A stretch of DNA of 64,000 nucleotides from Hymenobacter gelipurpurascens. GTDB lineage: Bacteria > Bacteroidota > Bacteroidia > Cytophagales > Hymenobacteraceae. The notes beneath the pieces were generated by a model that saw only the letters and a list, made by a program, of their open reading frames with translations, made no database searches and was not told the DNA's origin. This document shows positions 1 through 64,000 of this stretch, piece after piece. Each line of letters begins with the position of its first letter. Position 1 is the stretch's first letter. The translations under genes were made by a program, and so were the position numbers. The stretch spans positions 310,001 to 374,000 of the forward strand of contig NZ_FYEW01000003.1 of NCBI RefSeq assembly GCF_900187375.1. The letters run 5' to 3'.

Positions 1-210
1 TTGTGCGTATTTGCTGTATTCCGTCGAGTCCGAAGCAGTGCGCAGCGTGGCGGTGTGCGGCTCCTCTGTGCCTAGTAGGCCACTAAGGAAGGACGCTTCC
101 TGCGCTACAAGGGCGCCCTGTGCTGTCGGGTGAGTTGCGGGAGTTCTTTCAAAGAAAAAAGAGAGGACCATCGAGGCCGCGGCGAGGCAATACAGGATGC
201 TGTTTTTCAT
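1..210 (-). CDS. Secreted protein of unknown function, 3' end cut by window edge
   Basis: Reading leftward from the ATG whose first base is 210, the frame stays open for 70 codons to the first base of the window, so only the N-terminus is present. It begins MKNSILYCLAAASMVLSFFF, a short positive start followed by a hydrophobic stretch, which fits a Sec signal peptide. After that comes a Thr/Ser/Ala-rich linker with no motif I recognise. No Shine-Dalgarno sequence is visible, which is normal in this phylum. The codon Gly-Leu-Leu-Gly near 78 contains one of the TAGGCC hexamers. It might be a periplasmic or cell-wall enzyme, but the catalytic part lies outside the window, so I assign no function. 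Confidence 0.6.
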   Translation of the reverse strand, partial: MKNSILYCLAAASMVLSFFFERTPATHPTAQGALVAQEASFLSGLLGTEEPHTATLRTASDSTEYSKYAQ

Positions 211-494
211 TGTCCGTCGGGAAGTGGCAAAAGAAGGTAACCGAGGCTGTCGGCTAACCTGAGTGGGTGCTGTTTTTTCGAGAGGAAAGAGACCTGAAAA
301 CGAAAAAATAAGAGGGTAAAAGAGCGTTTTAAGCTGGCTTGTTGAGCCGGATAGTTCTCCGAGCCAGTTGTTAAAGCTAACCCCAAAAATCCGGGATGAC
401 CAAGCTTCGTACCCCAAATAGGTTAAAGTTCTTCTTAAAGCCCAACTATATCATTAAAAAATTAAGGCCAATATGCCAACTGCTTGGCTAAAAG

Positions 495-905
495 GTGCGT
501 ATACTCGGCCCGATTTATTCGTTTGTTATGGAGTTGCCCCGCATCATTGAAAACTCGCCCTTCGCTCGGGCCGCGCGCCTCAAGCTAGGCGCCCGTAGCG
601 TGGCCTTGGTACTGGGCCAGAACATCCATCTGAGCGGAGCTACCCGGGAGGAGTTTCTGCGCGACCCGCATTGGGTAGCCCACGAGATGGAACACATCCG
701 ACAGTTTCAGGAGCACGGCCACTTTGGTTTCCTGTGGCGCTATCTGGTCGGGTGGGTTCGATACGGTTATTACAATATTCCTTTTGAGGTAGCCGCCCGC
801 GAAGCCGGGGAGCGAGATGCCCTGCTGTATGCGCAAGGCCAAGCACTTCCTTCTCCCGAGCAGCGGCATGCCTCGCCGAAAGGCCCAAGAAACTTACCAA
901 GCTAG
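495..905 (+). CDS. HEMEH-motif small metalloprotease-like protein
   Basis: 136 residues from a GTG start; an ATG at 528 (MELPRIIENSPF) is an equally good start and would give 125 residues. The centre carries WVAHEMEHIRQF, an HExxH zinc-peptidase signature in which His, Glu and the second His are all present. It is followed by an aromatic stretch (FLWRYLVGWVRYGYYNIPFEVAAREAGERDA) whose Glu residues could give the third ligand. This layout, a short protein with HEMEH followed by 'PFE.EA..A', resembles the DUF4157-like peptidase group. There is no signal peptide or clear membrane anchor. The C-terminus is a Pro/Arg-rich tail. Substrate unknown. It stands alone, with about 280 bp on each side free of genes. 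Confidence 0.72.
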   Translation: MRILGPIYSFVMELPRIIENSPFARAARLKLGARSVALVLGQNIHLSGATREEFLRDPHWVAHEMEHIRQFQEHGHFGFLWRYLVGWVRYGYYNIPFEVAAREAGERDALLYAQGQALPSPEQRHASPKGPRNLPS

Positions 906-1170
906 TTCTACTGAGGCTTATAGGTGAGATTCTAGGCCATCTAGAAATCAAGATTCGTCTTCTAGGCCTCTTAGCACATTTGGTATAGCGTCTTGGTAAG
1001 GGGAAAGCTGGCCTAGGCCACTGATAGGTGCTGTAGAAGTATATAGCGTGGTTGCTATAACCAGTTGGCACTCAACTCAACCACAACTTTTCTGCAGGTT
1101 TTCACGAATACAAGGGGGCAACTGCCCGCCGGCAGCTTGAGTTAGTTTTATCACGCAACCCCTCACTACC
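906..1170. other. Intergenic stretch rich in TAGGCC motifs
   Basis: 265 bp without a believable gene. It holds four TAGGCC/GGCCTA hexamers within about 90 bp (near 932, 962 and a palindromic GGCCTAGGCC at 1010-1019) and several CTAG tetramers. I see no promoter with both boxes and no terminator hairpin with a T-run. Confidence 0.4.
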
Positions 1171-1890
1171 ATGGAAAACAAGCAAAACCAGCCTAATAGC
1201 GGCTCTAATCAGAATTCTAATTCCAACAAAAATATTTCTTCTGCTCCTACCTCAGCTGGTGCTGCAGGCACTCCAGCACCGGGCAATTCCGCCTCGGCCA
1301 TGGATTCAGAAACGAACAAGTCGCAGGCTACTAGCAAGTCCGCTGCTTCGGGTAGTGCTTCCAGCTCAGACCAGAGCGCAAGCGGCAGCAACCGTAGCAA
1401 CACCTCCAATTCCGATCAGAGCTCGTCCCGCTCCGGCGGCAACGACAGCCGTTCTTCGTCCTCATCCGCAGACCAGAACTCAGGTCAGAGAAGCCAGCAA
1501 AACAGCGGCAGCCAGCAGAAATCATGGCTGGATCAGCAGCAATGGCTGAAAAACATTGATGTAAACCAGCTTCCCCAGCAACTGAAGGATTTCGGCAGCA
1601 AAGCGGCTGAGCAGGTAAACAAGCTCACGCCCACGCAAAAAGTAGTAGGCGGTGCTCTTCTGGTAAGCGGTCTGAGCTGGTTGGCTTTGCGCTCCAAGAG
1701 CAATGCTTCGAAGGGAGAGGCCTACCGCTCGTACCGCGGCTCTTCCGACACCGATTCAAAATCGAAGTGGGGCAACGACTCATCGAAGTGGAACAAGGAT
1801 TCCGACTCGAAGTGGAATAGCAGCAGCGACTCCGTATACCGCGGCAGCACTTCGCGTAGCTACGATGACGACTACTCCAGCGACCTGTAA
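1171..1890 (+). CDS. Ser/Asn/Gln-rich low-complexity protein with one membrane helix
   Basis: 239 residues. Residues 1-125 are almost only Ser, Asn, Gln, Ala, Thr and Gly, which implies a disordered region. Residues about 128-155 (WLDQQQWLKNIDVNQLPQQL and on) look like an amphipathic segment. One hydrophobic helix follows at about 160-175 (VVGGALLVSGLSWLALR). The C-terminus is a repeat of SKW units spaced by Asp/Asn/Ser (KSKWGND, SSKWNKD, DSKWNSS) ending in a Tyr/Asp-rich tail. I do not recognise a family. There is no N-terminal signal, so the helix would be the only anchor. The gene is alone and ends in a strong bidirectional terminator. Low-complexity genes evolve quickly, so homologs may share only the helix. 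Confidence 0.75.
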   Translation: MENKQNQPNSGSNQNSNSNKNISSAPTSAGAAGTPAPGNSASAMDSETNKSQATSKSAASGSASSSDQSASGSNRSNTSNSDQSSSRSGGNDSRSSSSSADQNSGQRSQQNSGSQQKSWLDQQQWLKNIDVNQLPQQLKDFGSKAAEQVNKLTPTQKVVGGALLVSGLSWLALRSKSNASKGEAYRSYRGSSDTDSKSKWGNDSSKWNKDSDSKWNSSSDSVYRGSTSRSYDDDYSSDL

Positions 1891-2199: not shown

Positions 2200-2658
2200 A
2201 TGAAACAATCCTCTCGGCTAACCCAGGCGCTTGGCAGTGGCCTAGGCGGCGCTTTGGTACTCAACATTCTACACGAAACCGTTCGGCACTTGCGCCCCGA
2301 AGATGCGCCCCGCATGGATGTGCTGGGCAAACGTGGCCTACGCAAGCTGATCAGCAAAGCCGATGCTCCGCAGCCCGATGACGACACCGCGTACGGCCTC
2401 ACTATGCTGGGCGACTTGGTGAGCAATGGCGTGTACTATAGCTTCGTCGGGACGGGGAAAGTCGTATGGTGGCGGGGTGCCGCGCTAGGCCTGGCGGCTG
2501 GCATCGGTGGCGTAGTGCTACCTGGCCCGATGGGACTTGGGGAGGCACCCAGCAACCGAACTACCCAAACGAAAGTCATGACGGTAGCGTGGTACCTGAT
2601 AGGTGGCCTAGCAGCGGCCGGCATTTCCAGCGCCTGGAGCAAGAGCCGCAAGAGGTAG
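2200..2658 (+). CDS. Small membrane protein of unknown function
   Basis: 152 residues from ATG 2200 (MKQSSRLTQALGSGLGG). Two or three hydrophobic helices are visible: about 10-24 (LGSGLGGALVLNILH), about 88-108 (WRGAALGLAAGIGGVVLPGPM) and about 127-143 (VAWYLIGGLAAAGISSAW). A polar stretch between them contains Arg/Asp-rich sequence (RPEDAPRMDVLGKRGLRKLI). The C-terminus is basic (SKSRKR). I do not recognise the family; the layout is that of small inner-membrane proteins with a cytoplasmic loop. An in-frame upstream start at 2173 exists, but the ATG at 2200 gives a cleaner N-terminus. The FkbM gene starts 39 bp downstream but has its own promoter motif. Confidence 0.7.
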   Translation: MKQSSRLTQALGSGLGGALVLNILHETVRHLRPEDAPRMDVLGKRGLRKLISKADAPQPDDDTAYGLTMLGDLVSNGVYYSFVGTGKVVWWRGAALGLAAGIGGVVLPGPMGLGEAPSNRTTQTKVMTVAWYLIGGLAAAGISSAWSKSRKR

Positions 2659-3780: not shown

Positions 3781-3970
3781 TGGCCTAGAGGTTGTCATGG
3801 CGAGGAGGCACGACGACGCCATCCTTCCTCGACACTGCACTAACCGTTGAACTATCAAAAAGCCCTTACTTCCACACAGGACGTAAGGGCTTTTCAGTTT
3901 TTAGGTGTTCGTACTACGACTAGGAAGGATTGGGTCGTTGTGCCTCCTCGTAATGACGACCTCTAGGCCA
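3781..3970. repeat. Intergenic inverted repeat, family A (GCGAGGAGGCACGACGA type)
   Basis: Two 49-nt arms, 3781-3829 and 3922-3970, are inverted copies of each other at about 43 of 49 positions. The core is GTCATGGCGAGGAGGCACGA, and the outer ends are TGGCCTAGAGG and CCTCTAGGCCA. The arms enclose a separate terminator hairpin. This resembles the repetitive extragenic palindromes with a 'GTCATTGCGAGGAGGC' core found many times in Bacteroidota genomes. Confidence 0.8.
3857..3894. terminator. Bidirectional rho-independent terminator inside repeat A
   Basis: Stem AAAAGCCCTTAC / GTAAGGGCTTTT with a 13-nt loop, and A/T runs on both sides. It lies between the convergent DUF4834 and DUF5686 genes and can serve both. 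Confidence 0.85.
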
Positions 3971-4017: not shown

Positions 4018-6648
4018 TTAAAACCCAATGCCTACGCGTAGGCCAGTCCCTACTCGTTTGCCAGATTGTAGGCCAGTATAGAAGTCAACTCGGAGCAGTT
4101 TGAAGACGTGCTCAACGCCTACACCCAACTCCAGGTAGTGGTTGGCGGTGGGCGTGGTCAGGTAGTTGAGCGAGGCCACTTCCTGCCACTTCAGACGACG
4201 CAGCAGCGGTATTTTGTTCAGCAGGAACCCATTGAAGTGGTGATTGTAGTGGGCTTCCAGGTACCTGTCCTGAGTGCTGAACCGATAATAGTCGAGCAAC
4301 TGGAACTGGCTGAAGTCGCCGGTCAGGTAGGTGCGGTTGCCACTGAAATGACGGAAATCCATGAACTCCAGTTTCGGCGAGCCAGGGAAGAAACCAGCCG
4401 ACACGCGGTAGTTGCTGGTACCCAACAGGCCTAGATTAACAGAATGGCGCAGGCCGGCTTCCAGCAGCGTATAGCGCACATCGGAGCCTAGCACGCCGCC
4501 CACGCCTTGTCGCCACCGCAGCAGAAAGGTAGGATACTTAGAGCCTAGATTGACCTTACCATTGGGGCGGGTGATGAAGCGCTGTCCCGGCCGGAAAGAG
4601 GCCGTGATGTCTGTGGTAAGCGCTTGGCTGCGCCCAAAGCTGGTGCCCAACGGAAGCTCTTCGTTGATGGGTGTATTCGGCGTAAATCCCACGCTGGGCT
4701 TATCAATGAGCAACTTGCCTGTGGTATTATACAGCTCGCGCCTAGTAAAGTAGCTGGTGGTTGCCTGCACCGTGAGGCCATTCAAGGGTTCCCACTGGTA
4801 GCCCAGCTCCAGGCCATCGCGGCGGTAGAGCTTGGCGTAGTTGCGGTTTTCCAGCAGCGTGTAGTAGGAGTTGATGAAGGGCGTAAGCTGGCTGTTGGGG
4901 TCAAAGTTCTCGATAGTGCGCCCGGCGCTCAGGCTTAGGCGGCCTAGCTTCACGGGGTCATATTGCCAGGAGGCCGACACGCTGGGGCTCAGAAGCTTAT
5001 TGCTGAATCCGTAGCGCAAAGAGGGCGTCACGGACCACACGCGCCGGTCGTCGGTGCGCTGGGTAAAGGTGACCTGCGGATTGACCACCAGCCCTTCCAC
5101 CGTATTAAAGTTCACGATATTAAAGACCGGTGCCACGTACCACTGGCGCTTGTAATAGGTCTGGTTATAGAAGTAGCCCGCGAGCAGCAGCTTGCCAATT
5201 TCCACCTCGTTGCGCTTGCGGTCCAGAGAGTCCTGGTAGGTGCGCGACGTGCGGATAACCTCTGTGCTGTCCTTCACCTGATAGTCCTTTTCTTCTTCCG
5301 AAGTGAGCGGAATAGGCCTCACCGATGCCCAATAGCTGGTGTCGCGTTCATTCACGCCTTTCTCCACTAGCATTACTTCGCCGCGCTTCAGCTTGCCCAT
5401 GCCTAGGCCACTCGTGTCGCGCTCGGCCTGTTTGGCCTGGCGGCGCACAGCGGCGCGCAGGCCCTGTAGCTTGGGCTTTTGCTTCTTCACATCAGCCACG
5501 GTCTCTCGCGTTACGGGAGCATCAGCCGCTTCTTTGCTGGTGGGCGTGGGCGCTGCCACGGTGGGAGCCGGGCGGTTGGGGTAGGTAGGAACCACTTTGT
5601 AGTTCGATAGTATGGCCGTGATGTAGCCATTGCCCTTGAAGCCCAGGGCCGTAAAGCCCACCGTTACCTTCTGCGACTGCATCACCCACACATCGGAAGG
5701 CCCCGGAGCGGGCGCAAAAATCTGCTCGATGTGCAGGTTGTCGACGTAGTCGAGCTGGGCATCTTTGTTCAGGTTGAGCGATACTGAATGCAGGCGCCAG
5801 GTGCCATCCACAATGTAGATGTGGCCCGAGAAAACGGGGTCGGAGCGGCGGCGGGGCGTTACCTTTATTTTATGGATCAGTAGGCCACCCTGCTGGGTGC
5901 TGCCTTCTAGCTCGTAGCGGTAAAACAGCGGCCCGTTTGCCGCAATCGGCGACACAAACCCGCGCTCCGAAAAGCCGCTTTTTAGCACACTCTGGTAGAA
6001 ATTGAGGCCCCGGCCGGCGCTGGCCCGGTTGAAGCTGATGCCTTTGGTGTCGCCGCTTACGCGGGAGGAAATCATGCGCTCCTGCACCACATTGGGCTGG
6101 CGGAAGCTCATTTCTGAAACTGTTTCGGAGAGGTAGAATATACCTGGCTTGAAATCGGGCCCCACTTTCACGAGGCCCATAATCTTGCCCGGCACATCGG
6201 TAAAACGAGCGAGGGTTTTGATATAGGTGCGCGCCTTGAAAGCGGCCACTTCGCGCTGGTGGTAGTTGCGCCACTGAATGGCTTGCTGCACAATAGTGTA
6301 AGCCGGGTCCTTGTCGGAAGAGCGTACCACCACCTCCCGCAGCTGGTAGCTTTCCGGTGCCAGTGTCACGTTGAGCACGGTGGCCGTGTCGCCGCCCGCC
6401 ACGCGCACGGTTTCCAGGTGCGGCTTGTAGCCTACATACTGAAATACCAGCTCATAGGTGCCGGCTGGCAGGCGCAGCTGGTAGTTGCCCTGCTCGTTGG
6501 TAGCCGTATTGGTGGGGGTGCCGCGCACCGCTACATTAGCAAAAGCCAGCCCCTGGCCTTTAGCATCAGAAACGAGCCCCCGGACGGTACCAGCCTGCGC
6601 AAACGGGAGATATAAGAAGAAGCAAACCAGCAGGAAAACAGAACGCAT
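4018..6648 (-). CDS. DUF5686 outer-membrane protein with carboxypeptidase-like regulatory domain
   Basis: 876 residues from the ATG at 6648; the signal peptide MRSVFLLVCFFLYLPFAQAG starts exactly there, so the longer TTG reading frame is not used. Residues about 20-105 are a carboxypeptidase-D regulatory-like beta domain (GTVRGLVSDAKGQGLAFANV, then GYKPHLETV). The rest matches DUF5686: YTIVQQAIQWRNYHQREVAA near 140, a charged linker with Lys/Arg repeats around 420-450, and a C-terminal half of alternating beta-strand pattern ending in aromatic/hydrophobic 'VGTGLRVGIGF', typical of an outer-membrane barrel. Role unknown; the family often accompanies TonB-dependent uptake. It stands alone between two terminators. 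Confidence 0.85.
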   Translation of the reverse strand: MRSVFLLVCFFLYLPFAQAGTVRGLVSDAKGQGLAFANVAVRGTPTNTATNEQGNYQLRLPAGTYELVFQYVGYKPHLETVRVAGGDTATVLNVTLAPESYQLREVVVRSSDKDPAYTIVQQAIQWRNYHQREVAAFKARTYIKTLARFTDVPGKIMGLVKVGPDFKPGIFYLSETVSEMSFRQPNVVQERMISSRVSGDTKGISFNRASAGRGLNFYQSVLKSGFSERGFVSPIAANGPLFYRYELEGSTQQGGLLIHKIKVTPRRRSDPVFSGHIYIVDGTWRLHSVSLNLNKDAQLDYVDNLHIEQIFAPAPGPSDVWVMQSQKVTVGFTALGFKGNGYITAILSNYKVVPTYPNRPAPTVAAPTPTSKEAADAPVTRETVADVKKQKPKLQGLRAAVRRQAKQAERDTSGLGMGKLKRGEVMLVEKGVNERDTSYWASVRPIPLTSEEEKDYQVKDSTEVIRTSRTYQDSLDRKRNEVEIGKLLLAGYFYNQTYYKRQWYVAPVFNIVNFNTVEGLVVNPQVTFTQRTDDRRVWSVTPSLRYGFSNKLLSPSVSASWQYDPVKLGRLSLSAGRTIENFDPNSQLTPFINSYYTLLENRNYAKLYRRDGLELGYQWEPLNGLTVQATTSYFTRRELYNTTGKLLIDKPSVGFTPNTPINEELPLGTSFGRSQALTTDITASFRPGQRFITRPNGKVNLGSKYPTFLLRWRQGVGGVLGSDVRYTLLEAGLRHSVNLGLLGTSNYRVSAGFFPGSPKLEFMDFRHFSGNRTYLTGDFSQFQLLDYYRFSTQDRYLEAHYNHHFNGFLLNKIPLLRRLKWQEVASLNYLTTPTANHYLELGVGVEHVFKLLRVDFYTGLQSGKRVGTGLRVGIGF

Positions 6649-9486: not shown

Positions 9487-9498
9487 GCAAGAAGTGGC

Positions 9499-10128
9499 CT
9501 AGCGCTTGGCGGGAGGCTGTGGATTTTGCATCTGCTGCGTAAGAATCACGCGCCGCCCGGTGAGGGTTTCGAGCATAGGGCGCAGAATTTTCTCGGCATT
9601 CAGCTGCGTTTGGGCCAGAATGCCCGATTGCAGCGCGGCCGTACGCACATTAGCTTCGGCGTATTTATAGCCAGCGTCCACGAGTTCGGCATCCTGAAAA
9701 AAGCCGTTTTCTACACTGTATACCTTGCTTTTGGAGTGGTCTATCTGCCAGGTGCAGAGTTCTGGGGCGGGCAAGGCCACGCGCACTATAGAGTCGCCCT
9801 CCATCACTACATCTTGAGAGCGAAGCTTGCGCAGGTCGAGGCAGCCCACGGCGTCGCCGGCCACAATGAGGGCTACTTTGGCATCGGGCAGGAAGCGGTA
9901 GGTACTCTTTTTGTACTCTACCACATCTTTAAAATGGTACTGCACTAGCTCCAGGCGGCCGAGGTCTTCTACTTTCTCCAGCACCGTGTTGTGCGTCACG
10001 GTGATACGCGGCTCGGGGTTCAGCGGGTTTTCCAGCAGCGTAGGGCTGACTTTGGTCCAGAGAAACCAGCCTAAACCAACTAAAAAAGCAAGTGGCAGCA
10101 GGCGGCGGAGCATACGGGCAAGAGGCAT
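9499..10128 (-). CDS. DUF4230 domain membrane-anchored protein
   Basis: 209 residues. One N-terminal helix (LLPLAFLVGLGWFLWTKV, about 10-27) anchors the protein with its bulk probably outside the cytoplasm. Residues about 45-190 match DUF4230: LGRLELVQYHFKDVVEYKK, ALIVAGDAVGCLDLRKL, VRVALPAPELCTWQIDHSKS, and a helical end (NVRTAALQSGILAQTQLNAE). The domain is found in many bacteria and its role is unknown. It converges on recX with only 12 bp between the stop codons, so neither gene has room for a separate terminator there. Confidence 0.85.
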   Translation of the reverse strand: MPLARMLRRLLPLAFLVGLGWFLWTKVSPTLLENPLNPEPRITVTHNTVLEKVEDLGRLELVQYHFKDVVEYKKSTYRFLPDAKVALIVAGDAVGCLDLRKLRSQDVVMEGDSIVRVALPAPELCTWQIDHSKSKVYSVENGFFQDAELVDAGYKYAEANVRTAALQSGILAQTQLNAEKILRPMLETLTGRRVILTQQMQNPQPPAKR

Positions 10129-10263
10129 AGAACAGGGAAACGCGACAGTAGACTTCTGATAGCGTACGAGCCAGAACGAATTGAGGTGCGGTTACGCCAG
10201 CTTCGGGGGCAGGAGAACGGCTGTTTATAGAACTCCTAGGCCACCTGCAAAGCCCAAGCAATG

Positions 10264-11169
10264 CTAAAGCCCAAGCTCATGGCGCTCCTGAAAGCCACCC
10301 CAGGCCTGTAGGCCACCCGTATGCACCGCCACCACGGTGCTGCCGCGCCGGAAGTAGCCCTGCGCCAGCAAATCCAGCACGCCTACCAGCATTTTGCTGG
10401 TATAAATGGGGTCAAGCAGCACGCCATGACGCTCCCGGAATTCCCGGATAAACTGCATCAGCTCCGCAGACAGCTTGGCATACCCGCCGCCGTGGTAGCC
10501 GGTCTGTAGGGTCCAGTTAGTATAGGTATGGCCGGTGGCCTGCTGCGTAAGTTGGTTGATGTCGTGACGTAGAAAGTCGGCGCCTTTCAGCGCGGCAAAT
10601 CCTGCTGCTTCGTGGTGGCCCGCTAGGCCAGTCAGGAAGCCCGCGAGGGTGCCACCGGTGCCGCATGCTACGCACAGGTAATCGAACTCAGTGAGGGCTT
10701 TCAGCTCCGTCACTAGTTCGGCGCAGCCCGGCAGTGCCAGCGTGTTGGAGCCGCCTTCCGGAAGTACATAGGCTGGCCCAAGCGTCTGCAGCAACTGGCC
10801 TAGCACCGCCGGCTCGTGCTTGCGGCGGTAGGTCGCGCGGTCCAGGAAATGCAGCTCCATGCCATCGGCGCGGGCCTGGCCCAGGGTGGGGTTGAAGGGC
10901 AACAGGCCTAGCTCTTCGCCGCGCACTACCCCAATGGTGCGTAGGCCCGTCAGGCGGCCCGCCGCTGCCACGGCCGCCAAATGGTTGGAAAAAGCGCCGC
11001 CAAACGTGAGCAGCGTGTGGTGGCCTAGCCGCTGGGCTTCGGCCAGATTATACTTGAGCTTCCGCCACTTATTGCCCGGCAGCTCGGGGTGTGTCAGATC
11101 ATCACGCAGGAGCAGCAGCCGCACACCGGCGCGGTCGGCGGCTGGCTCAGCAAGTGGCTGCAGAAGCAT
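10264..11169 (-). CDS. PLP enzyme of the D-cysteine desulfhydrase / ACC deaminase family
   Basis: 301 residues. Fold-type II pyridoxal-phosphate enzyme. PGNKWRKLKYNL (about 30-41) holds the PLP-binding lysine, GGAFSNHLAAVAAAG (about 57-71) is the phosphate/substrate Ser-Asn-His motif, and CGTGGTLAGFLTG (about 170-182) is the Gly-rich phosphate cup. LPEGGSNTLALPG is also typical. The sequence alone cannot say whether the substrate is D-cysteine or 1-aminocyclopropane-1-carboxylate; most bacterial members of this kind act on D-cysteine. It is slightly short for the family (about 310-340). Alone, with a family B repeat upstream. Confidence 0.85.
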   Translation of the reverse strand: MLLQPLAEPAADRAGVRLLLLRDDLTHPELPGNKWRKLKYNLAEAQRLGHHTLLTFGGAFSNHLAAVAAAGRLTGLRTIGVVRGEELGLLPFNPTLGQARADGMELHFLDRATYRRKHEPAVLGQLLQTLGPAYVLPEGGSNTLALPGCAELVTELKALTEFDYLCVACGTGGTLAGFLTGLAGHHEAAGFAALKGADFLRHDINQLTQQATGHTYTNWTLQTGYHGGGYAKLSAELMQFIREFRERHGVLLDPIYTSKMLVGVLDLLAQGYFRRGSTVVAVHTGGLQAWGGFQERHELGL

Positions 11170-24829: not shown

Positions 24830-24904
24830 GGGAGAAATTTAGTAGGAAGGGAAAGCTGAAATGCTGTGAAAAGATGGCCAGAGTGGCCTAGAGGCTAGCT
24901 TGGC

Positions 24905-48790: not shown

Positions 48791-49618
48791 CTATTCGTAC
48801 CGGAATGTTATAGGAAGAGTGTAGCGGACAGGCACAGCGTGTTTGTTCTGACGGCCAGGTTTCCAAGCAGGCATGGAGCTAATAACTCGCGAAGCTTCTT
48901 CATCGGTACCGTAGCCCAAGCCTTTCAAAATCTCCACATCCATGATGGTGCCGTCGGAATTGACTGTAAAGGCAACGAAGACTTTTCCTGAAACACCCTC
49001 GCGGAGTGCAGATGCCGGATAGCGTAAATGGCGCTGCAGATATTTAGCTAGAGCAGCTTGCCCTCCGATAAAGTCAGGCATCTCTTCCACATGAATAAAC
49101 GGTTTCGTAGTGGCGGGTACCGTGGTATGCGCAGCGGTATCATTGCCAGTACTAACATCGCCAACAGTTCCTACAGTAGGCCCATCAGAGGCAACGGGAC
49201 CTACAACAGAAGGGCCATCAGTAGCTTCCACTGGCTTAAGCGGTTCCACAGTAGGTTTCACCTGTTCATCAGGAACAACCCTTGTCGGGAGGGCAGTAGC
49301 AGGAGGCCGCACTACTACGGCTTGGCGTGCGGCTGGTGGAGGCAACGTTTCCTGCTTAGGAATAACGATATCAGTTAAGTGTACAACGGGTGGCGGAAGC
49401 TCAAAGATATATGCGGCCACAACTGTGCTAGGCCAGATGCGTTGTACCACTATAGGAATTGCAATAAGCAATGCCATGAGCGCAGTTGCCAAGGCAACGG
49501 CCGTATAAAGATTACGTCCATAAATGCGGCGTAATACATAAGCGCCATAAGCTTTGTTGCGGCCCTCGAAGACGATATCATCGAGAGAGAGGAGCGGGGT
49601 GTGCGTGGTCGTGGTCAT
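48791..49618 (-). CDS. TonB energy transducer, copy 2
   Basis: 275 residues. N-terminal block LDDIVFEGRNKAYGAYVLRR (the Bacteroidota TonB start), then one membrane helix (LYTAVALATALMALLIAIPI). A Pro/Val/Gly-rich periplasmic linker follows and the TonB C-terminal domain (about 190-275): VEEMPDFIGGQAALAKYLQR, HLRYPASALREGVSGKVFVA, ILKGLGYGTDEEASRVISSM and PVRYTLPITFRYE. It passes the proton force from ExbBD to outer-membrane receptors. It lies behind its paralog with a terminator between, so it has its own control region. Confidence 0.92.
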   Translation of the reverse strand: MTTTTHTPLLSLDDIVFEGRNKAYGAYVLRRIYGRNLYTAVALATALMALLIAIPIVVQRIWPSTVVAAYIFELPPPVVHLTDIVIPKQETLPPPAARQAVVVRPPATALPTRVVPDEQVKPTVEPLKPVEATDGPSVVGPVASDGPTVGTVGDVSTGNDTAAHTTVPATTKPFIHVEEMPDFIGGQAALAKYLQRHLRYPASALREGVSGKVFVAFTVNSDGTIMDVEILKGLGYGTDEEASRVISSMPAWKPGRQNKHAVPVRYTLPITFRYE

Positions 49619-49848: not shown

Positions 49849-50682
49849 TTACTTGATAGCAAACGTCACAGGAACAGTAAAGTATACTGGTACTGCACGA
49901 CCATTTTGCTTACCTGGAGTGAATTTAGGTAGGTTCTTGATTACGCGAAGAGATTCTTCGTCGCAACCAGCCCCAATGCCTTTCTGCACTTCAGCATTCG
50001 TAACAGAGCCATCGGCACCTACTACGAATTTGATAAATACACGGCCTTCAACTTGGTTACGTAGTGCCATGGCCGGATACTTGATGTTCTTACCGATGTA
50101 AGCCAACAAAGCTTCCTGACCACCGGGGAATACCGGCATTTGCTCTACATACGTGTAAGGCTTGCTTTCAACCACCTCTTCAACAGCCTTGGTTCCTTCA
50201 CCAGGTTCTAGGCCAGCCAAGTCGGCAGGGTTGTCAGTATTGCCTTTCACAGTTACGTCAGCCACTGTTTTCTCCTTCAGCTCTTCCTGATCAGGAATTT
50301 CCTCTACTTTTTTCACTTCCTCATCCTTCTTTACGACGGGAGGTGTGAACTTAACAGTGGAAAGCTTTGGTGGCGGCGGCGGCGGCGCGTCTGGTGGCGG
50401 CGGCGGTGGGGGTGGGGGCTTTGTAGCATCCAGCGGAGGTGCTTCCATCAGCTCATTCACCTTCAGCATTGCATCATCCTTCACCACTTCTTCTTTCTTC
50501 AACATGCGCGCCAACAGGGGGAACGCAATCATGAGAGCAAAAAAAGCAACTGCGAGAAGCACTGCACGGGTCACGTGCTTACCATACACCCGCCGGATTA
50601 CGTAGGCTCCATAGGCCTTATTGCGCCCCTCGAAAACGATGTCGTCGAGGGAGGCTTTGGCCAACTGTGTGTTGTCCATCAT
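49849..50682 (-). CDS. TonB energy transducer, copy 1
   Basis: 277 residues from ATG 50682 (a second ATG is at 50679). Start LDDIVFEGRNKAYGAYVIRR is nearly identical to copy 2. One helix (AVLLAVAFFALMIAFPLLAR) follows, then a long proline block (two runs of 6-9 Pro at about 93-110) and a Lys/Glu-rich linker, then the TonB domain: VEQMPVFPGGQEALLAYIGK, VEGRVFIKFVVGADGSVTNA, GCDEESLRVIKNLPKFTPGK and VYFTVPVTFAIK. Its start overlaps the exbD stop by 4 bp (ATGATGA), so translation is coupled. Confidence 0.94.
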   Translation of the reverse strand: MMDNTQLAKASLDDIVFEGRNKAYGAYVIRRVYGKHVTRAVLLAVAFFALMIAFPLLARMLKKEEVVKDDAMLKVNELMEAPPLDATKPPPPPPPPPDAPPPPPPKLSTVKFTPPVVKKDEEVKKVEEIPDQEELKEKTVADVTVKGNTDNPADLAGLEPGEGTKAVEEVVESKPYTYVEQMPVFPGGQEALLAYIGKNIKYPAMALRNQVEGRVFIKFVVGADGSVTNAEVQKGIGAGCDEESLRVIKNLPKFTPGKQNGRAVPVYFTVPVTFAIK

Positions 50683-54069: not shown

Positions 54070-55458
54070 GTGGCATTAATAAAATCAATTTCAGGCATCA
54101 GAGGGACTATTGGAGGTGCTGTTGGCGAAGGCCTGACCCCAATTGATGTGGTAAAATATGCTGCGGCTTTCGGGACGTGGGTCCTCAACAAGACGCAAAA
54201 CAATACCATCGTAATTGGCCGTGATGCACGTTTGTCGGGCGATATGGTGAGCCGGTTGGTGGCTGCTACCCTTCAGGGCTTAGGCATTCATGTAATTGAC
54301 CTAGGTCTCAGCACTACGCCGACTGTGGAAATGGCTGTGCCTGCCAAACAAGCAGGTGGAGGCATAATTCTCACGGCTTCTCATAACCCGAAGCAATGGA
54401 ATGCCTTGAAACTCCTAAATGATAAGGGCGAGTTTATTTCTGACGAAGATGGCAAAACGGTGCTGGCTCTTGGCGACTCAGAAGCCTTCGATTTTGCTCC
54501 GGTAACCAAGCTAGGCCAGTATTCAGTAGATGATACGTTTCTGCAGCAGCATATAGACGCCATCTTGCAGCTACCGTTGGTTGATAAAGAAGCCATTAAA
54601 GCCCGCAATTTCCGGGTGGTGGTGGATGCCGTGAACTCCACAGGTGGTTTTGCCGTGCCCATGCTGCTAGAAGCGCTTGGAGTCGAGACCATTGAGAAGC
54701 TGTACTGTGAGCCAACTGGCGACTTTGCGCACAACCCGGAGCCGTTGCCTGAGAACCTGCGTGATATCGCTCGGATTTTGGAGAAAGGCAGCTTCGACCT
54801 GGGCATTGTGGTAGACCCTGATGTTGACCGCTTAGCCCTAGTGAACGAGGATGGTACCATGTTCGGTGAGGAGTACACACTAGTGGCCGTATCCGACTAT
54901 GTGCTCCAGCAGAATGGCGGTGGCAACACGGTCAGCAACCTGAGCAGCACCCGTGCCTTGCGCGATGTAACGGAGAAGCACGGTGGTAGCTACGCTGCTG
55001 CGGCTGTAGGCGAGGTGAACGTGGTAAACAAGATGAAGGAAACCAATGCTGTGATTGGAGGCGAAGGCAATGGGGGCATCATTTATCCCGAGCTGCACTA
55101 CGGCCGCGATTCGTTGGTAGGTATTGCGTTGTTCTTGAGTCATCTGGCCAAGACTGGCCTGACCATGACGCGCTTGCGGGCTTCGTACCCGAACTACTTT
55201 ATCTCCAAAAACAAGATTGAGCTGACCCCCGAAATCAATACCGATGAGGTGTTGGTGCAGATGCAGCAACGCTATGCCAAGCAGCCCGTCAACACGATAG
55301 ATGGGGTGAAGATTGAGTTTGATAAAGAGTGGGTGCACCTGCGGAAATCAAACACGGAGCCTATTATCCGCATTTATGCAGAGTCGGACTCCAATGCCAC
55401 GGCAGACCATCTGGCCAAAAAAATCATCGAAGACATAAAGGAGATTATCAACCACTAA
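54070..55458 (+). CDS. glmM: Phosphoglucosamine mutase
   Basis: 462 residues from a GTG start. Converts glucosamine-6-phosphate to glucosamine-1-phosphate for UDP-GlcNAc and peptidoglycan. SGIRGTIGGAVGEGLTPIDV start, IVIGRDARLSGDMVSRLV, then ILTASHNPKQWNALKLLND with the phosphoserine at about 103, DPDVDRLALVNEDGTMFGEE with the metal-binding DxDxDR, GGEGNGGIIYPELHYGRDSL for the sugar, and LRKSNTEPIIRIYAESDS for the phosphate. The glucosamine rather than glucose type is supported by the GEGNGG segment. Its partner glmU is not in the window. Confidence 0.93.
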   Translation: MALIKSISGIRGTIGGAVGEGLTPIDVVKYAAAFGTWVLNKTQNNTIVIGRDARLSGDMVSRLVAATLQGLGIHVIDLGLSTTPTVEMAVPAKQAGGGIILTASHNPKQWNALKLLNDKGEFISDEDGKTVLALGDSEAFDFAPVTKLGQYSVDDTFLQQHIDAILQLPLVDKEAIKARNFRVVVDAVNSTGGFAVPMLLEALGVETIEKLYCEPTGDFAHNPEPLPENLRDIARILEKGSFDLGIVVDPDVDRLALVNEDGTMFGEEYTLVAVSDYVLQQNGGGNTVSNLSSTRALRDVTEKHGGSYAAAAVGEVNVVNKMKETNAVIGGEGNGGIIYPELHYGRDSLVGIALFLSHLAKTGLTMTRLRASYPNYFISKNKIELTPEINTDEVLVQMQQRYAKQPVNTIDGVKIEFDKEWVHLRKSNTEPIIRIYAESDSNATADHLAKKIIEDIKEIINH

Positions 55459-55632: not shown

Positions 55633-56784
55633 ATGACCGTGTATTTTGATAATGCTGCCACTACACCTCTCGATCCGGAAGTATTAGAGGCTATGCTGCC
55701 GTTCATGCGCGACCATTTCGGTAATCCAAGCAGCATTCATGGCCACGGGCGGCAGGTACGGGCGGCCATCGAAAACGCACGCAAAAGCATTGCACATTTG
55801 ATTAATGCGGCCCCGGCTGAAATTGTGTTTACCTCCTGCGGAACGGAAGCCGACAACTACGCGGCTTTCGGAAGCATCCGGACGCTAGGCCTACGGCACG
55901 CCATCACCTCGAAGCTGGAGCATCATGCGGTGCTGCATACGCTGCAGGCCCTGGAAAAAGCCGGCGACATACAACTCAGCTACCTGCGGCACGATGCCCG
56001 CGGCCAACTTGACCTAGGCCACCTAGATGAGCTGTTGGCCACCCACCCAGGCAGAACGTTTGTCAGCCTGATGCATGCCAACAATGAAATTGGCAACCTC
56101 AACGATATTGAAGCCATCGGGGAGATTTGTCAGCGCCACGAAGCCGTGTTCCATACGGATACGGTGCAGACGATGGGCCATTATAAGCACGATGTGCAGA
56201 AGTTGAAGGTCGATTTTCTGGTGGGCTCGGCACACAAGTTCCATGGGCCGAAGGGCATCGGGTTTTTGTACCGCCGCTCCGGGGTGTTGGTAGATTCCCT
56301 TATTCATGGCGGCTCGCAGGAGCGGAACCAGCGGGCCGGCACAGAAAACGTGTATGGTATCGTCGGACTATCGAAAGCCCTGGAAATCGCCTGTCGGGAT
56401 ATGGCTGAGCATCAACAGCATATTCAGGGACTGAAAGACCGCTTCATCCATAAATTACGGGCCGAGATTGAAGGAGTAGAATTCAATGGTCTTTCTGCTG
56501 AAGCAGAGCATAGCCTCTACACCGTGCTGAATGTAAGCCTGCCGCCTTCCGAGATGAACGAGATGCTGCTTTTTAATCTGGATATCAACCGCGTATCCGT
56601 TTCGGGCGGTTCTGCCTGTACCAGTGGCGCCAATGCAGGCTCGCATGTACTAAGCGCGCTAAACTGCGACCCCAACCGGGGCGCCATCCGCTTCTCAATG
56701 AGCAAGTATAATACGGCCGAAGAAGTAGATTATGCGGTAGAGCAACTAGCAAAGATGTACCGGAAAGAGCCGTTGAAAATTTGA
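55633..56784 (+). CDS. Cysteine desulfurase (IscS/NifS family)
   Basis: 383 residues from ATG 55633 (MTVYFDNAATTPLDPEV); the frame is open 147 bp further up, but that stretch reads as unconserved sequence behind glmM. Takes sulfur from cysteine for Fe-S clusters and thio-tRNA. FDNAATTPLDPEVLEAM, NPSSIHGHGRQVR, EIVFTSCGTEADNYAAFG, the PLP lysine (about 202) in LVGSAHKFHGPKGIGFLYRR, GGSQERNQRAGTENVYGIVG, and the sulfur-carrying Cys329 in SGGSACTSGANAGSHVL. No iscU follows. Ends in a bidirectional terminator. Confidence 0.94.
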   Translation: MTVYFDNAATTPLDPEVLEAMLPFMRDHFGNPSSIHGHGRQVRAAIENARKSIAHLINAAPAEIVFTSCGTEADNYAAFGSIRTLGLRHAITSKLEHHAVLHTLQALEKAGDIQLSYLRHDARGQLDLGHLDELLATHPGRTFVSLMHANNEIGNLNDIEAIGEICQRHEAVFHTDTVQTMGHYKHDVQKLKVDFLVGSAHKFHGPKGIGFLYRRSGVLVDSLIHGGSQERNQRAGTENVYGIVGLSKALEIACRDMAEHQQHIQGLKDRFIHKLRAEIEGVEFNGLSAEAEHSLYTVLNVSLPPSEMNEMLLFNLDINRVSVSGGSACTSGANAGSHVLSALNCDPNRGAIRFSMSKYNTAEEVDYAVEQLAKMYRKEPLKI

Positions 56785-57041: not shown

Positions 57042-57692
57042 ATGGCTGACATTAATATTCAACGAAAAAAATCTTCTCCCAGCCCCTGGCTGCTTGTTTT
57101 ACTGGTGCTGATAGGCCTAGTAGCGGTTGGCTACTACATATTCCGGACTGATACTGACCAGCCTGTAGAAACAGCCCGACCCATACCTAGTGTGGAGCCT
57201 GCCCCCGATTCTACCACCGGTGCTGAAACAGCGCCCAGGCCTACCAACGACCCAGCAGTATCGGATATGGCCACGGAGGAGCCAGGTGCCTCGCCCGATG
57301 AGTTGGCCGCATTTGCCGCTTCTGGCACCACTGCGCCTGATTACGGCCGACGTGGCCTAGAAATGCTAAGCGCCACCTTACTGCCCCTCGCTGACCGCGA
57401 CGATCTGCGCGATGCGACTGTAAACGAGAAGCGCGATGACCTCACCAGTGCCACCAGCCGTTTGCAGGAACAAAATAGCAGTCTGCGCCCCGGCTATGTG
57501 GCCGCTGCGGCTCTTCTGAAGGCGTTACAGCAGAAAGGCTACCCCGCGCTGGAGGCAGATGCCGGAGAACTCACAACGCGGGCTGAGGCCCTTAGCGGCC
57601 GCGCCTCTACCCCCCAGGATCAGGAGCAGATACGTGATTTTCTGACCCGTGCTGCCCAGCTTCTGCGTACTATAAGCCAGCCAGCGCGCTGA
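57042..57692 (+). CDS. Membrane-anchored protein with coiled C-terminal domain
   Basis: 216 residues from ATG 57042 (MADINIQRKKSSPSPW); the frame is open to 56979 but without conserved features. One helix (WLLVLLVLIGLVAVGYYIF, about 16-34), a Pro/Thr/Glu-rich linker to about 110, then an amphipathic helical domain (DDLRDATVNEKRDDLTSATS, LRPGYVAAAALLKALQQKGY). Family not recognised. The hydrophobic segment includes an ATA-GGC-CTA run (Ile-Gly-Leu). Followed 27 bp later by the PRC-barrel gene, so the two probably form an operon. Confidence 0.7.
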   Translation: MADINIQRKKSSPSPWLLVLLVLIGLVAVGYYIFRTDTDQPVETARPIPSVEPAPDSTTGAETAPRPTNDPAVSDMATEEPGASPDELAAFAASGTTAPDYGRRGLEMLSATLLPLADRDDLRDATVNEKRDDLTSATSRLQEQNSSLRPGYVAAAALLKALQQKGYPALEADAGELTTRAEALSGRASTPQDQEQIRDFLTRAAQLLRTISQPAR

Positions 57693-58294: not shown

Positions 58295-59341
58295 TTAGTT
58301 ATGCCGAATCATGTCGGCCACGGTTTCCACCCACTGGGGGTGCGAGTTCAGCGAGGGAACCAGTTGCCAATGCTCGCCACCGGCTTCTTCAAAGAGCTCC
58401 TTAAATTCCTCGCCGACCTCAATAGTCGTTTCGAGACAATCGGCCACGAAAGCGGGGGAGAAGGCCAATACACTTTTGATGCCTTTAGCTGGGAATTCCT
58501 TAATAACCTCGTCGGTGTAAGGCTGCAGCCATGGGTCGCGGAGGCGGCTTTGCAGGCGGCTCTGGAAGGTGGTGGTGTACTGCTCAGGCGAGAGGCCTAG
58601 AGCCGCGCCTAGCAGGCGAGACGTCTCAAAGCACTGGGCCCGGTAGCAGTAACGGTTGTTTTTGTTATAGCTGTTGCAGCAATTGGCAAGCTTGCAGTAA
58701 CCGTTTTGGCTGCCTTTCAGCACGTGCCGCTCCGGAATGCCGTGGTAGCTGAACACCACATGGTCGTAGTGATGCTTGGCCATTTCTTCTTTGCCCAGCG
58801 TGGCAAATGTGCCCGTGAACCCCGGAATATCTACAAAGGTGCTGATGAAGCTGATGCTGGGCACCACCCACCACTTGCTCACAATATCCATTACCTTTTC
58901 TTGTACTGAGCCTGTGCTGGCCGCCGCGTACTGCGGAAACAGCGGCAGCACGATAATGCGGTCTACAGCTGCATCGCGCAGTTCTTGTAGGGCGCTTTCA
59001 ATACTGGGTTTCTGGTAGCGCATCCCGAAGGCGACCAGATAGTCCTTGCCAAGCTTTTCCTGTACTAGTTTTTGCAAATCTAGGCCATGAAAAAGCAGTG
59101 GCGAGCCTCGGTCGGTCCAGAGCTGCTGATATATTTTGGCGGATTTGGGGGCTCGTAATGGCACCACAAGTCCTCTGAACAGCGGGTAGCGTACGGCGGC
59201 CGGCATATCAATCACGCGGGCATCCGTCAGGAATTCGTTGAGGTAGCGGCGCACGTCGCCGGTCTGGGGCGAGTCGGGCGTGCCGAGGTTCACGAGCAGG
59301 ACGCCGATGCGGCCTTTAGTAGAAGTGGGAATGGAGGGCAT
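58295..59341 (-). CDS. hemH: Ferrochelatase with cysteine-rich insert
   Basis: 348 residues from ATG 59341 (MPSIPTSTKGRIGVLL). Inserts ferrous iron into porphyrin to make heme. IGVLLVNLGTPDSPQTGDVR start, MPAAVRYPLFRGLVVPLRAP, GSPLLFHGLDLQKLVQEKLG, DRIIVLPLFPQYAAASTGSV, HVVFSYHGIPERHVLKG with the catalytic His, VLAFSPAFVADCLETTIEVG. Around residues 210-235 there are five Cys in C-x4-CC-x9-C-x4-C, a cluster able to hold an iron-sulfur centre, which some bacterial ferrochelatases have. Confidence 0.94.
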   Translation of the reverse strand: MPSIPTSTKGRIGVLLVNLGTPDSPQTGDVRRYLNEFLTDARVIDMPAAVRYPLFRGLVVPLRAPKSAKIYQQLWTDRGSPLLFHGLDLQKLVQEKLGKDYLVAFGMRYQKPSIESALQELRDAAVDRIIVLPLFPQYAAASTGSVQEKVMDIVSKWWVVPSISFISTFVDIPGFTGTFATLGKEEMAKHHYDHVVFSYHGIPERHVLKGSQNGYCKLANCCNSYNKNNRYCYRAQCFETSRLLGAALGLSPEQYTTTFQSRLQSRLRDPWLQPYTDEVIKEFPAKGIKSVLAFSPAFVADCLETTIEVGEEFKELFEEAGGEHWQLVPSLNSHPQWVETVADMIRHN

Positions 59342-59535
59342 AAAAGAAGGTAACGCCAAGAGGTGCCAAGCGAATCAGCGGGGCAAGTGGCCTAGAAACT
59401 GTACTAAGCCAATGCAAAGGTCGCCAACGATTTCTGAACTAAAACCTGACTTATGTCATCTTTCAATTCGTGGTAGAGACAATCTTGCCCGAAGCTATGT
59501 TTTAGAGGGCAGGTGGCCTAGCCGCCGGAAAGTCG

Positions 59536-60466: not shown

Positions 60467-60563
60467 GTGAAATTGTGAAAGGTGAAGTTGTGAACTGATG
60501 TTCGACTGGCCTAGGTGACGCAGCCGGAACAGCAATTCGCAATTTCACCTTTCACAATTTTAC
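60467..60563. repeat. Intergenic inverted repeat, family C
   Basis: The left arm GTGAAATTGTGAAAGGTGAA then GTTGTGAACTG (60467-60503) is the inverse of 60527-60563 at about 31 of 37 positions. The loop contains ACTGGCCTAGGT. The same element, less complete, is at 32463-32548, with a single arm at 3984-4015. Confidence 0.8.
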
Positions 60564-61967: not shown

Positions 61968-62013
61968 GAAAGTGGCCTAGCGTATGCGCTAAGATCATTG
62001 CTAGGCCACTTTC
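61968..62013. other. Hairpin of paired GTGGCCTAGC / GCTAGGCCAC
   Basis: AAAGTGGCCTAGC (61968-61981) and GCTAGGCCACTTT (62000-62012) are exact inverse copies with a 17-nt loop, carrying the window-wide hexamer on both arms. No T-run; a second hairpin follows at once. Confidence 0.7.
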
Positions 62014-62488: not shown

Positions 62489-62518
62489 GTGCCTATGCTA
62501 CTTTGAATAGGCGAGTTG

Positions 62519-63085
62519 TTAGCCCAGCCGTCGCTGTAGCAGGCTATCTACCACATCAAATAGCTTGCGCGGCGCATACGTGCGCCACGGAAGATCATCC
62601 AGTTGCCCGCCAAAGTTGACGTAGCTGTCGATGTTGTACTGGCGCATTTCGCGGATGACGTGGTCCTGGAAGTTCACGGCCGCAATCCAGCCATCTTCCA
62701 CGTCTTCAAACCACTCCTCGTAGTAGTCGTCTTCGGAGCCGTGGAAGTTGAAGACGTTTTCGCCGATAAGAATGAATTTGCGGATTCCTTCGTGCGTCAT
62801 CAGATCTACGATGTTGCGCTTGAGGTTCATGATGTCGTTTTCAATGGCATCATTCCACTCCCCGATAAACTCAATAATGGCCAGGCCAAGATCGTAATCA
62901 ACGAAAAGAATCTTCAGGAACAGCGTATCCGAGTCGAGACTATCCCACTGCGGGTGGATGTAATAGCCGTAAATGGTATTGACGTAGCTATCGAGGCTGT
63001 TTTCGGCTTCAAAGAGGGGAGAGCGGGGGTCCTCGGTGGCCGAATAATGGTCCAGCCAGGCGTAGTGCGGCTCAATGGTATGCAT
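62519..63085 (-). CDS. Conserved Bacteroidota protein of unknown function
   Basis: 188 residues from ATG 63085 (MHTIEPHYAWLDHYSATEDP); the frame extends to 63184 but the protein family starts at MHTIEP. No signal peptide or helix: a soluble cytosolic protein. Conserved-looking blocks: YVNTIYGYYIHPQWDSLDS, VDYDLGLAIIEFIGEWNDAI, MNLKRNIVDLMTHEGIRKFI, LIGENVFNFHGSEDDYYEEW, and DVEDGWIAAVNFQDHVI, with many Tyr, Trp and acidic residues. I recall a Bacteroidota-wide family with this layout but no function for it. It faces the terminator at 62450-62488. Confidence 0.82.
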   Translation of the reverse strand: MHTIEPHYAWLDHYSATEDPRSPLFEAENSLDSYVNTIYGYYIHPQWDSLDSDTLFLKILFVDYDLGLAIIEFIGEWNDAIENDIMNLKRNIVDLMTHEGIRKFILIGENVFNFHGSEDDYYEEWFEDVEDGWIAAVNFQDHVIREMRQYNIDSYVNFGGQLDDLPWRTYAPRKLFDVVDSLLQRRLG

Positions 63086-63247
63086 AAGCGTAAGCGGGCT
63101 AAGGAGAAAACAAAGCACACGCTCGCGCTTGTGCCCTAGGCCGTGCCAGGTAGCAGTAGCCTCATTGCCCTTAACTCCAACCAAAGCGGCCAGGTTTCCG
63201 CACCCGCCCGAAACCTGCTATACTGGCCTAGCAGCCAATACGCATGC

Positions 63248-64000
63248 TTATTTCCGGGCCACAAGGGCCGCCCGCACCGAGCCATGCTGCCGGAGCAGCT
63301 CGGCAGCTTCTGTCTGCGAAATCTGCAGTTCATCCATAAGCATCTTTTCGCCTCGGTCCACCAGCTTGGCGTTGCTGAGCTGCATATCCACCATCTTATT
63401 GCCTTTCACGCGGCCCAGCCGGATAAAGGTGGCTGTGGTGAGCATGTTGAGCGCCAGTTTCTGGCCGGTGCCCGCTTTCAGGCGTGTGCTACCCGTGACG
63501 AACTCGGGGCCGGTTACCACTTCTACCGGAAATTCGGCGGCAGCCGCTACGGCCGAGCCGGCATTGCACACGATACAGCCTGTAGCCAAGCCATGCTTTC
63601 GGGCCTGCTCTAGGCCACCTATAACGTAGGGTGTGCGCCCAGAGGCGGCAATGCCCACTACAATATCCTGGTCGTTGATGTCGTAGGCCAGTAGATCCTT
63701 CCAAGCTTGCTCAGCGTCATCCTCCGCATTTTCTACCGCTTTCCGGATGGCCGTGTCGCCGCCCGCAATAATCCCGACAACTACACCGTGCGGCACCCCA
63801 AACGTAGGCGGGCACTCCGAGGCATCCAGAATACCCAGCCGGCCACTGGTGCCGGCCCCAATGTAAAACAACCGCCCTCCTTTGCCGAGCCGGGCCACCG
63901 TAGCCTCTACCAGCGCTTCAATCTGAGGCAGGGCCTTCGCTACCGCTTGTGGTACGGTCTGGTCCACAGTGTTCATACCCGCCAGCAGCTCGTGGGTAGA
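63248..64000 (-). CDS. murQ: N-acetylmuramic acid 6-phosphate etherase, N-terminus cut by window edge
   Basis: The minus-strand frame is open past the right edge (residues before MNTVDQTVPQAVAKAL read STHELLAG and stay in frame), so the start lies outside. MurQ cleaves the lactyl ether of MurNAc-6-phosphate, recycling peptidoglycan. The SIS fold is clear: GGRLFYIGAGTSGRLGILDA, then SECPPTFGVPHGVVVGIIAG, DDAEQAWKDLLAYDINDQD, IVVGIAASGRTPYVIGGLEQ and STRLKAGTGQKLALNMLTTA, with the catalytic Glu segment LDASECPPTFG. The C-terminus is complete. Confidence 0.95.
   Translation of the reverse strand, partial: STHELLAGMNTVDQTVPQAVAKALPQIEALVEATVARLGKGGRLFYIGAGTSGRLGILDASECPPTFGVPHGVVVGIIAGGDTAIRKAVENAEDDAEQAWKDLLAYDINDQDIVVGIAASGRTPYVIGGLEQARKHGLATGCIVCNAGSAVAAAAEFPVEVVTGPEFVTGSTRLKAGTGQKLALNMLTTATFIRLGRVKGNKMVDMQLSNAKLVDRGEKMLMDELQISQTEAAELLRQHGSVRAALVARK

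Follow-up and report, generated by a model that had tools for sequence, protein, structure and literature searches.

A short asymmetric word iterated thousands of times in Hymenobacter gelipurpurascens and Hymenobacter fodinae, and its possible role as a self-DNA tag

The stretch of DNA analysed here (the window; 64,000 nt, C3:310001-374000) lies in the genome of Hymenobacter gelipurpurascens (G000; 5,060,948 bp in 9 contigs) and encodes proteins that resemble those of Bacteroidota, a MurF-Alr protein among them. Within and between its genes, and in both orientations, it carries many copies of the 8-mer TGGCCTAG (other-strand form, CTAGGCCA). Expected counts were obtained from a third-order Markov model, and the word read backwards served as the composition control. 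A total of 54 copies of TGGCCTAG/CTAGGCCA (32 + 22) were found against 3.7 expected, which placed it first in enrichment among the 8-mers of the window, while the shorter TAGGCC/GGCCTA occurred 171 times (88 + 83) against 62.8 expected. The original prediction had counted about 160 of these hexamers by eye, close to the exact number, and had rightly pointed to a longer form and to freedom of place and strand. Its chance figure of about 38 is near what plain base composition predicts, and its G+C content of about 56% was measured as 54.5%. GGCCTAG or CTAGGCC accounts for 82 of the 177 CTAG tetramers in the window.

The excess extends throughout the genome. The whole of G000 contained 4306 copies of TGGCCTAG (2169 + 2137), whereas the reversed word occurred 91 times (40 + 51). 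In 804 kb sampled as 38 stretches from contigs C1-C3 (window included), there were 683 copies, or 0.85/kb, which is close to the 0.84/kb of the window, and 720 kb outside the window held 625 copies against 38.7 expected with both orientations summed; the enrichment in G000 is approximately 16-fold. Both outcomes that had been named in advance as fatal to the original prediction, a Markov-corrected count near expectation and an excess confined to the window, are thus contradicted by the counts. An artefact of base composition was rejected by the Markov model together with the reversed-word control.

Alignment of the sequences flanking TGGCCTAG revealed a core of GGCCTA and a non-palindromic full consensus of A[CG]TGGCCTA[CG], with information fading approximately 3 bases to either side of the 8-mer. 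A was found at −2 (0.61), C or G at −1 (0.94 jointly), and T was scarce at +8 to +10. The variants AGGCCTAG (first base A) and TGGCCTAC (last base C) were likewise over-represented in G000, and TAGGCCTA was enriched less than TGGCCTAG. In 720 kb, variants with one mismatch at the six inner positions totalled 747, compared to an expectation of 609, and no single variant exceeded 2.3-fold, so decay products of the word are few. Among 1984 CTAG tetramers, 81 bore both arms, 422 and 390 bore one arm, and 1091 bore neither (odds ratio 0.54). A right arm followed 16.1% of left arms compared to 26.3% of CTAG without one; there is therefore no dyad preference around CTAG, and special palindromic recognition was rejected. 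Convergent pairs overlapping at an offset of 4 were frequent (44).

Using a simple gene caller made for this analysis, 353 of the 625 copies in 720 kb were placed in called genes, 239 between genes, and 33 at gene edges, which corresponds to densities of 0.58/kb in genes and 2.13/kb between them. The respective values in 80 kb of Hymenobacter fodinae were 0.51/kb and 1.31/kb. Over 384 kb, the density reached 5.98/kb between convergent (3'-3') genes, with 2.49/kb in tandem and 2.50/kb in divergent gaps, and no orientation bias could be observed within genes (102 copies along the gene and 87 against it). Pairs in opposite orientation 8–30 bases apart numbered 17; among five chosen pairs that were folded, four had z values of −4.7 to −12.9 and one had a z value of −0.9. 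Across the 38 stretches, the looser WGGCCTAS had no strand polarity (chi-square 30.1; correlation with GC skew −0.06). Spacing was random once close sites had been merged (coefficient of variation 1.07).

The density of the word averaged 17 copies per 20 kb with a variance of 24.5, two near-empty stretches included. These two were L252, a 20-kb stretch without a single copy, and L129, with 4 copies. L252 contains genes for RND efflux and for P-type ATPases (L252:35-7271); it is probably a metal-efflux island and looks like a recent acquisition. L129 carries a DNA polymerase III beta clamp gene beside a fused SNF2-helicase/N6-N4 methylase (L129:7017-10839), a region resembling what is left of a phage or plasmid. 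Contig C4 was similarly poor, with 2, 0, 10, 2, and 10 copies in five 20-kb stretches (24 in 100 kb). Ten proteins tested from two of these stretches included an integrase, a Fic protein, a TOTE-type helicase, and glycosyltransferases. Judged from gene content, the L252, L129, and C4 stretches look acquired, and the word is scarce in all of them. The helicase on C4 (L018:12335-14452), in a stretch that also has an integrase and a Fic protein, has the TBP-like domain of TOTE conflict systems.

Among the genomes searched, the word is restricted to G000 and its sister species H. fodinae (taken to be G018). The MurF-Alr protein of the window had H. fodinae 92R-1 as its nearest named genome (89% identity), and a tree of this one protein with 43 rows placed the two species in a clade with a support of 100/100. 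H. fodinae contained 4554 copies of TGGCCTAG, compared to 26–409 in 23 other genomes of the genus and 0–126 in 14 of the order. The full consensus ASTGGCCTAS occurred 4028 times in G000 and 3506 times in H. fodinae, while the remaining 59 of 61 genus genomes had 17–119 copies. In 194 genomes of the order, a draw that included G000 and not G018, none but G000 exceeded 82. The comparison with related genomes that the original prediction had proposed therefore singled out two of the 61 genus genomes. Among 80 named loci, mostly of approximately 22 kb, that of H. fodinae had 18 copies and the other 79 had 0–3, with none at all in 63.

The history of individual copies could be followed by alignment, as synteny links the window to G018 (nucleotide identity 78.6%) and to four outgroups, G068, G070, G069, and G006 (75–76%). 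At sites alignable to G018, 23 of 36 copies of TGGCCTAG were identical, compared to 743 of 3562 8-mers of the same composition (21%), while none was identical in the four outgroups (0/30, 0/30, 0/28, and 0/24). For WGGCCTAS, 49 of 101 sites were identical in G018 and 3/87, 2/82, 3/83, and 4/76 in the outgroups. Of the 54 sites in the window, 18 aligned to no outgroup and 36 to at least one, the nearest of which differed by 1–3 bases in 31 cases and by 4–5 in 5. A synonymous-opportunity test further revealed the word in 336 of 972 permissive places in G000 (34.6%), against 21.4 (2.2%) expected from codon use, and in 33 of 106 places in H. fodinae against 2.2 expected; the outgroups had it in 1/98, 4/81, 0/103, and 1/94. 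The control words TGGCATCG (52 vs 37.6; 1.4x) and GATCCGGT (14 vs 17.7; 0.8x) were near expectation in G000, and an artefact of codon usage was rejected on this basis. This test supersedes a partly circular count of CTA among leucine codons in the context of the word (153/232 and 133/156, against 2218/21942 overall).

The identity of sites in H. fodinae and the synonymous excess in both species, each lacking in the outgroups, point to a gain after the outgroups had split off, most simply on the common stem of G000 and H. fodinae, and to selection or drive as what keeps the word in each of the two. Where the outgroups align, the gain appears to have proceeded mostly by one to three base substitutions. 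In G070, which had 119 copies of ASTGGCCTAS, the synonymous excess was weak (4 vs 1.2 and 6 vs 2.0) and is perhaps the trace of an older state.

The word is therefore lineage-specific, maintained, and highly iterated, and it belongs to the class proposed by the original prediction, that of genome-wide, orientation-free words such as uptake signals or HIP1, the highly iterated palindrome (HIP) of cyanobacteria. The particular forms suggested fared less well, as the palindromy of HIP words is lacking in this asymmetric word and a methylation site is made less likely by the lack of PF00145 and PF02086 genes in G000. The function that we infer for the word from its sequence is that of a self-recognition tag of the DNA uptake sequence (DUS) kind, which we consider quite possible although not yet probable. 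Such a tag would best fit the asymmetric form of the word, its upkeep and location, and its rarity in DNA that looks acquired. The presence of ComEC is also in its favour.

The DUS of Neisseriaceae and the uptake signal sequences (USS) of Pasteurellaceae are likewise short non-palindromic words present in thousands of copies, at approximately one per kb and in both orientations. They share with the Hymenobacter word a higher density between genes, scarcity in acquired DNA, and conservation above background; in both cases some copies are paired in hairpins or overlap, and related lineages use different words. According to portions of two papers (PMC2397512, PMC3630211), uptake sequences of Neisseriaceae are enriched in the core genome and absent from recently acquired genes, occur as inverted pairs that act as terminators, form dialects, and in one species occur as overlapping dyads.

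Under this proposal, a DNA receptor or a processing step in transformation of the clade would prefer fragments bearing the word. Uptake followed by recombination would then copy the word faster than mutation erases it, and by such molecular drive the word would come to fill intergenic and synonymous positions, and newly acquired DNA would lack it. As none of the Hymenobacter genomes searched had a type IV pilus ATPase over the cut-off, such a receptor would have to be part of a different route of uptake. This route may resemble that of the Bacteroidota species Riemerella anatipestifer, where ComEC and DprA are needed along with proteins of the outer membrane and periplasm that differ from the well-known machinery. 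In that species, as far as portions of two papers describe it (PMC8459023, PMC8383284), ComEC, DprA, RecA, and a putative ComF are essential for transformation, as are four further proteins unlike the well-known machinery, including outer-membrane ones and one predicted to be fimbrial, while SusC/RagA and TonB mutants have lower transformation.

Several observations weigh against a self tag of this kind. In profile searches, the type IV pilus/type II secretion ATPase (PF00437) was found above the cut-off in none of 16 Hymenobacter genomes, including G000 and H. fodinae (G040 had a match below it), while the controls had a match in 14 of 14, 13 of them over the cut-off. The uptake-sequence systems described in the literature consulted rest on type IV pili, and the missing pili in a genus of Bacteroidota argue against the known form of uptake tag. 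All six genomes tested had ComEC, including four that lack the word; it therefore does not explain why 59 of 61 genus genomes are without the word. A slight majority of the copies are in called genes, unlike the DUS of Neisseria, which are mostly intergenic according to part of PMC2397512. Absence from acquired DNA would also be expected of any slowly accumulating word. The hairpin pairs give weak support, since any stem with the word in one arm must have the complement in the opposite arm, and no special stability was seen for one of the five folded pairs. No report of natural transformation or of an uptake sequence in Hymenobacter was present among the matches listed. Sequence alone does not separate an uptake signal from a chromosome-organising site.

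The latter, in which a clade-specific DNA-binding protein would use the copies as dispersed anchors, with approximately one per kb kept by selection, is rather unlikely in our view. It would account for the fairly even density over the 38 stretches, the random spacing, and the freedom of orientation, but more than 4000 sites under structural selection far exceed the number used by known anchor words, and the word has neither strand polarity nor a candidate protein.

An unlikely explanation is also offered by a HIP-like word, in which either the word or its core would be marked by a methyltransferase, and methyl-directed repair would ratchet near-matches into it. Elhai (2015) proposed this mechanism for HIP1 and the alternate HIPs found in cyanobacteria (PMC4390886). 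Part of that paper gives a HIP density of 500–2500 per Mb, and elsewhere 1000–2000, and describes lineage-specific alternate HIPs such that related species may bear different words. The approximately 850 copies of TGGCCTAG per Mb lie within the former range and slightly under the latter; both kinds of word are GC-rich, genome-wide, and lineage-specific; one lineage has switched its word while its relatives have not; and the Hymenobacter words CCTAGG and GGGGCCCY have palindromic cores. However, the present word is asymmetric, with no dyad preference around CTAG, and no cognate enzyme stood out in the five methyltransferase families covered. PF00145 was absent from G000 (H. fodinae was outside that set) and PF02086 was absent from both G000 and G018. 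PF01555 had one match in G000, the SNF2-helicase fusion in the word-poor L129 (H. fodinae again outside the set), and PF02384 had one weak match, on the 4.5-kb contig C8. PF07669 had three matches in G000, two on C4 and C8 and a third, weak, on C1; the C8 gene was approximately 50% identical to genes of the word-free G068 and G069, and no match was obtained between the gene on the word-poor C4 and the PF07669 gene that G018 has. The matching methyltransferase that the original prediction had suggested looking for was thus not seen as an enzyme special to G000 and H. fodinae in these families, in a search that did not cover H. fodinae for PF00145 and PF01555 and did not extend to the weak C1 match.

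A Chi-like recombination or nuclease-protection word, which would mark self DNA for a nuclease of the AddAB/RecBCD type, appears improbable. Chi sites are also short, asymmetric, GC-rich, and frequent, and the Hymenobacter 8-mer shares their genome-wide spread and is scarce in acquired-looking DNA. Chi words are strand-biased relative to replication, whereas the present word is without polarity, more strongly enriched, and missing in near relatives. A dispersed repeat element (a repetitive extragenic palindromic (REP) sequence or transposon remnant) or a terminator word would, like REP and bacterial interspersed mosaic element (BIME) repeats, explain the intergenic copies in strong hairpins near gene ends, but is very improbable because information ends approximately 3 bases beyond the 8-mer, the flanks are not conserved, most copies are in genes with synonymous positions filled, and orientation within genes is balanced.

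Other words were found in excess in other Hymenobacter lineages, and these recall the dialects of uptake sequences. CCTAGG was in excess in G021 (L038-L042), Solirubrum puertoriconensis, and Hymenobacter sp. BT559 (L163 and L200 also belong to this set), often with A or C before it and T or G after it, both inside genes and between them; the MurF-Alr tree sets its two named bearers apart. GGGGCCCY (GGGGCCCC/GGGGCCCT) was in excess in G012 (L089-L092), G067 (L147-L148), and H. nivis (L194), and lay in and between genes in G012 and H. nivis. An excess of GGGGTAGG/GGGGGTAG or GGGTAGGG was present in L150, L151, L154, L198, G070 (L117-L120), and G040 (L135-L136), partly in tandem, as with GGGTAGGGTA in G040. 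No word of comparable strength was present in 40–80 kb sampled from each of G003, G005, G002, G046, G053, and G055. A broader proposal, which we hold to be possible but doubtful, is that Bacteroidota, a group outside Neisseriaceae and Pasteurellaceae, evolved a self-DNA tag of the uptake-sequence kind, read by a pilus-independent route of DNA uptake, and that Hymenobacter lineages repeatedly evolve dialects of it (TGGCCTAG, CCTAGG, GGGGCCCY, and perhaps GGGGTAGG). No report of this word, or of uptake words in Bacteroidota, was present among the matches listed.

To our knowledge, words kept in thousands of copies are known from two proteobacterial families, as uptake sequences, and from cyanobacteria, as HIP1. 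The present word is a further, independent case in Bacteroidota; it apparently arose inside a single genus, and close sisters lack it. Such a gain would allow the rise of a word to be watched and its possible drivers, namely transformation, methylation with repair, and chromosome structure, to be compared. If it is an uptake tag, a sequence-specific DNA receptor working without type IV pili would be implied.

Copies of the word in the window, with strand and state in H. fodinae where recorded
Element	Position	Strand	Remark
TGGCCTAG	1009..1016	+	overlaps - copy at 1013 (TGGCCTAGGCCA)
TGGCCTAG	2238..2245	+	identical in H. fodinae
TGGCCTAG	2604..2611	+	
TGGCCTAG	3781..3788	+	
TGGCCTAG	9495..9502	+	
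TGGCCTAG	10796..10803	+	
TGGCCTAG	11021..11028	+	identical in H. fodinae
TGGCCTAG	15461..15468	+	identical in H. fodinae
TGGCCTAG	19967..19974	+	
TGGCCTAG	23985..23992	+	identical in H. fodinae
TGGCCTAG	24884..24891	+	
TGGCCTAG	24901..24908	+	
TGGCCTAG	25431..25438	+	
TGGCCTAG	28433..28440	+	AGGCCTAG in H. fodinae
TGGCCTAG	28774..28781	+	identical in H. fodinae
TGGCCTAG	28828..28835	+	identical in H. fodinae
TGGCCTAG	29773..29780	+	identical in H. fodinae
TGGCCTAG	30536..30543	+	identical in H. fodinae
TGGCCTAG	30950..30957	+	
TGGCCTAG	31925..31932	+	identical in H. fodinae
TGGCCTAG	32670..32677	+	
TGGCCTAG	33082..33089	+	
TGGCCTAG	33965..33972	+	
TGGCCTAG	42655..42662	+	identical in H. fodinae; overlaps - copy at 42659
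TGGCCTAG	42925..42932	+	identical in H. fodinae
TGGCCTAG	45046..45053	+	identical in H. fodinae
TGGCCTAG	57353..57360	+	identical in H. fodinae
TGGCCTAG	59388..59395	+	
TGGCCTAG	59514..59521	+	identical in H. fodinae
TGGCCTAG	60507..60514	+	
TGGCCTAG	61973..61980	+	left hairpin arm, ~10 bases 3' of gene; -27.1 kcal/mol, z -4.7
TGGCCTAG	63224..63231	+	
TGGCCTAG	932..939	-	
TGGCCTAG	1013..1020	-	overlaps + copy at 1009
TGGCCTAG	3963..3970	-	
TGGCCTAG	5403..5410	-	identical in H. fodinae
TGGCCTAG	10236..10243	-	
TGGCCTAG	10623..10630	-	identical in H. fodinae
TGGCCTAG	16075..16082	-	identical in H. fodinae
TGGCCTAG	18001..18008	-	
TGGCCTAG	25867..25874	-	identical in H. fodinae
TGGCCTAG	31041..31048	-	
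TGGCCTAG	31810..31817	-	
TGGCCTAG	32498..32505	-	
TGGCCTAG	33329..33336	-	
TGGCCTAG	33398..33405	-	
TGGCCTAG	42659..42666	-	overlaps + copy at 42655
TGGCCTAG	49428..49435	-	identical in H. fodinae
TGGCCTAG	50208..50215	-	
TGGCCTAG	54511..54518	-	identical in H. fodinae
TGGCCTAG	56014..56021	-	
TGGCCTAG	59080..59087	-	identical in H. fodinae
TGGCCTAG	62001..62008	-	right hairpin arm, pairs with 61973; identical in H. fodinae
TGGCCTAG	63610..63617	-	identical in H. fodinae

Two further palindromes, GACCGGTC (L205; 8 of 9 copies between genes) and GCAATTGC (G014, L043-L047; 21 of 25 between genes), were rejected as words of the same kind and taken as intergenic repeats because they lie mostly between genes; they are probably REP-like. 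In G000 (L001-L020 and the window), GATC occurred at approximately half the expected number (1306 vs 2551) and GGGCCC at 0.41 of expectation, which perhaps reflects avoidance of restriction sites. G010 (L101-L104) contained many GGGGGCTTTT-type sequences resembling repeated terminators, and its MurF-Alr gene likewise came in several frames.

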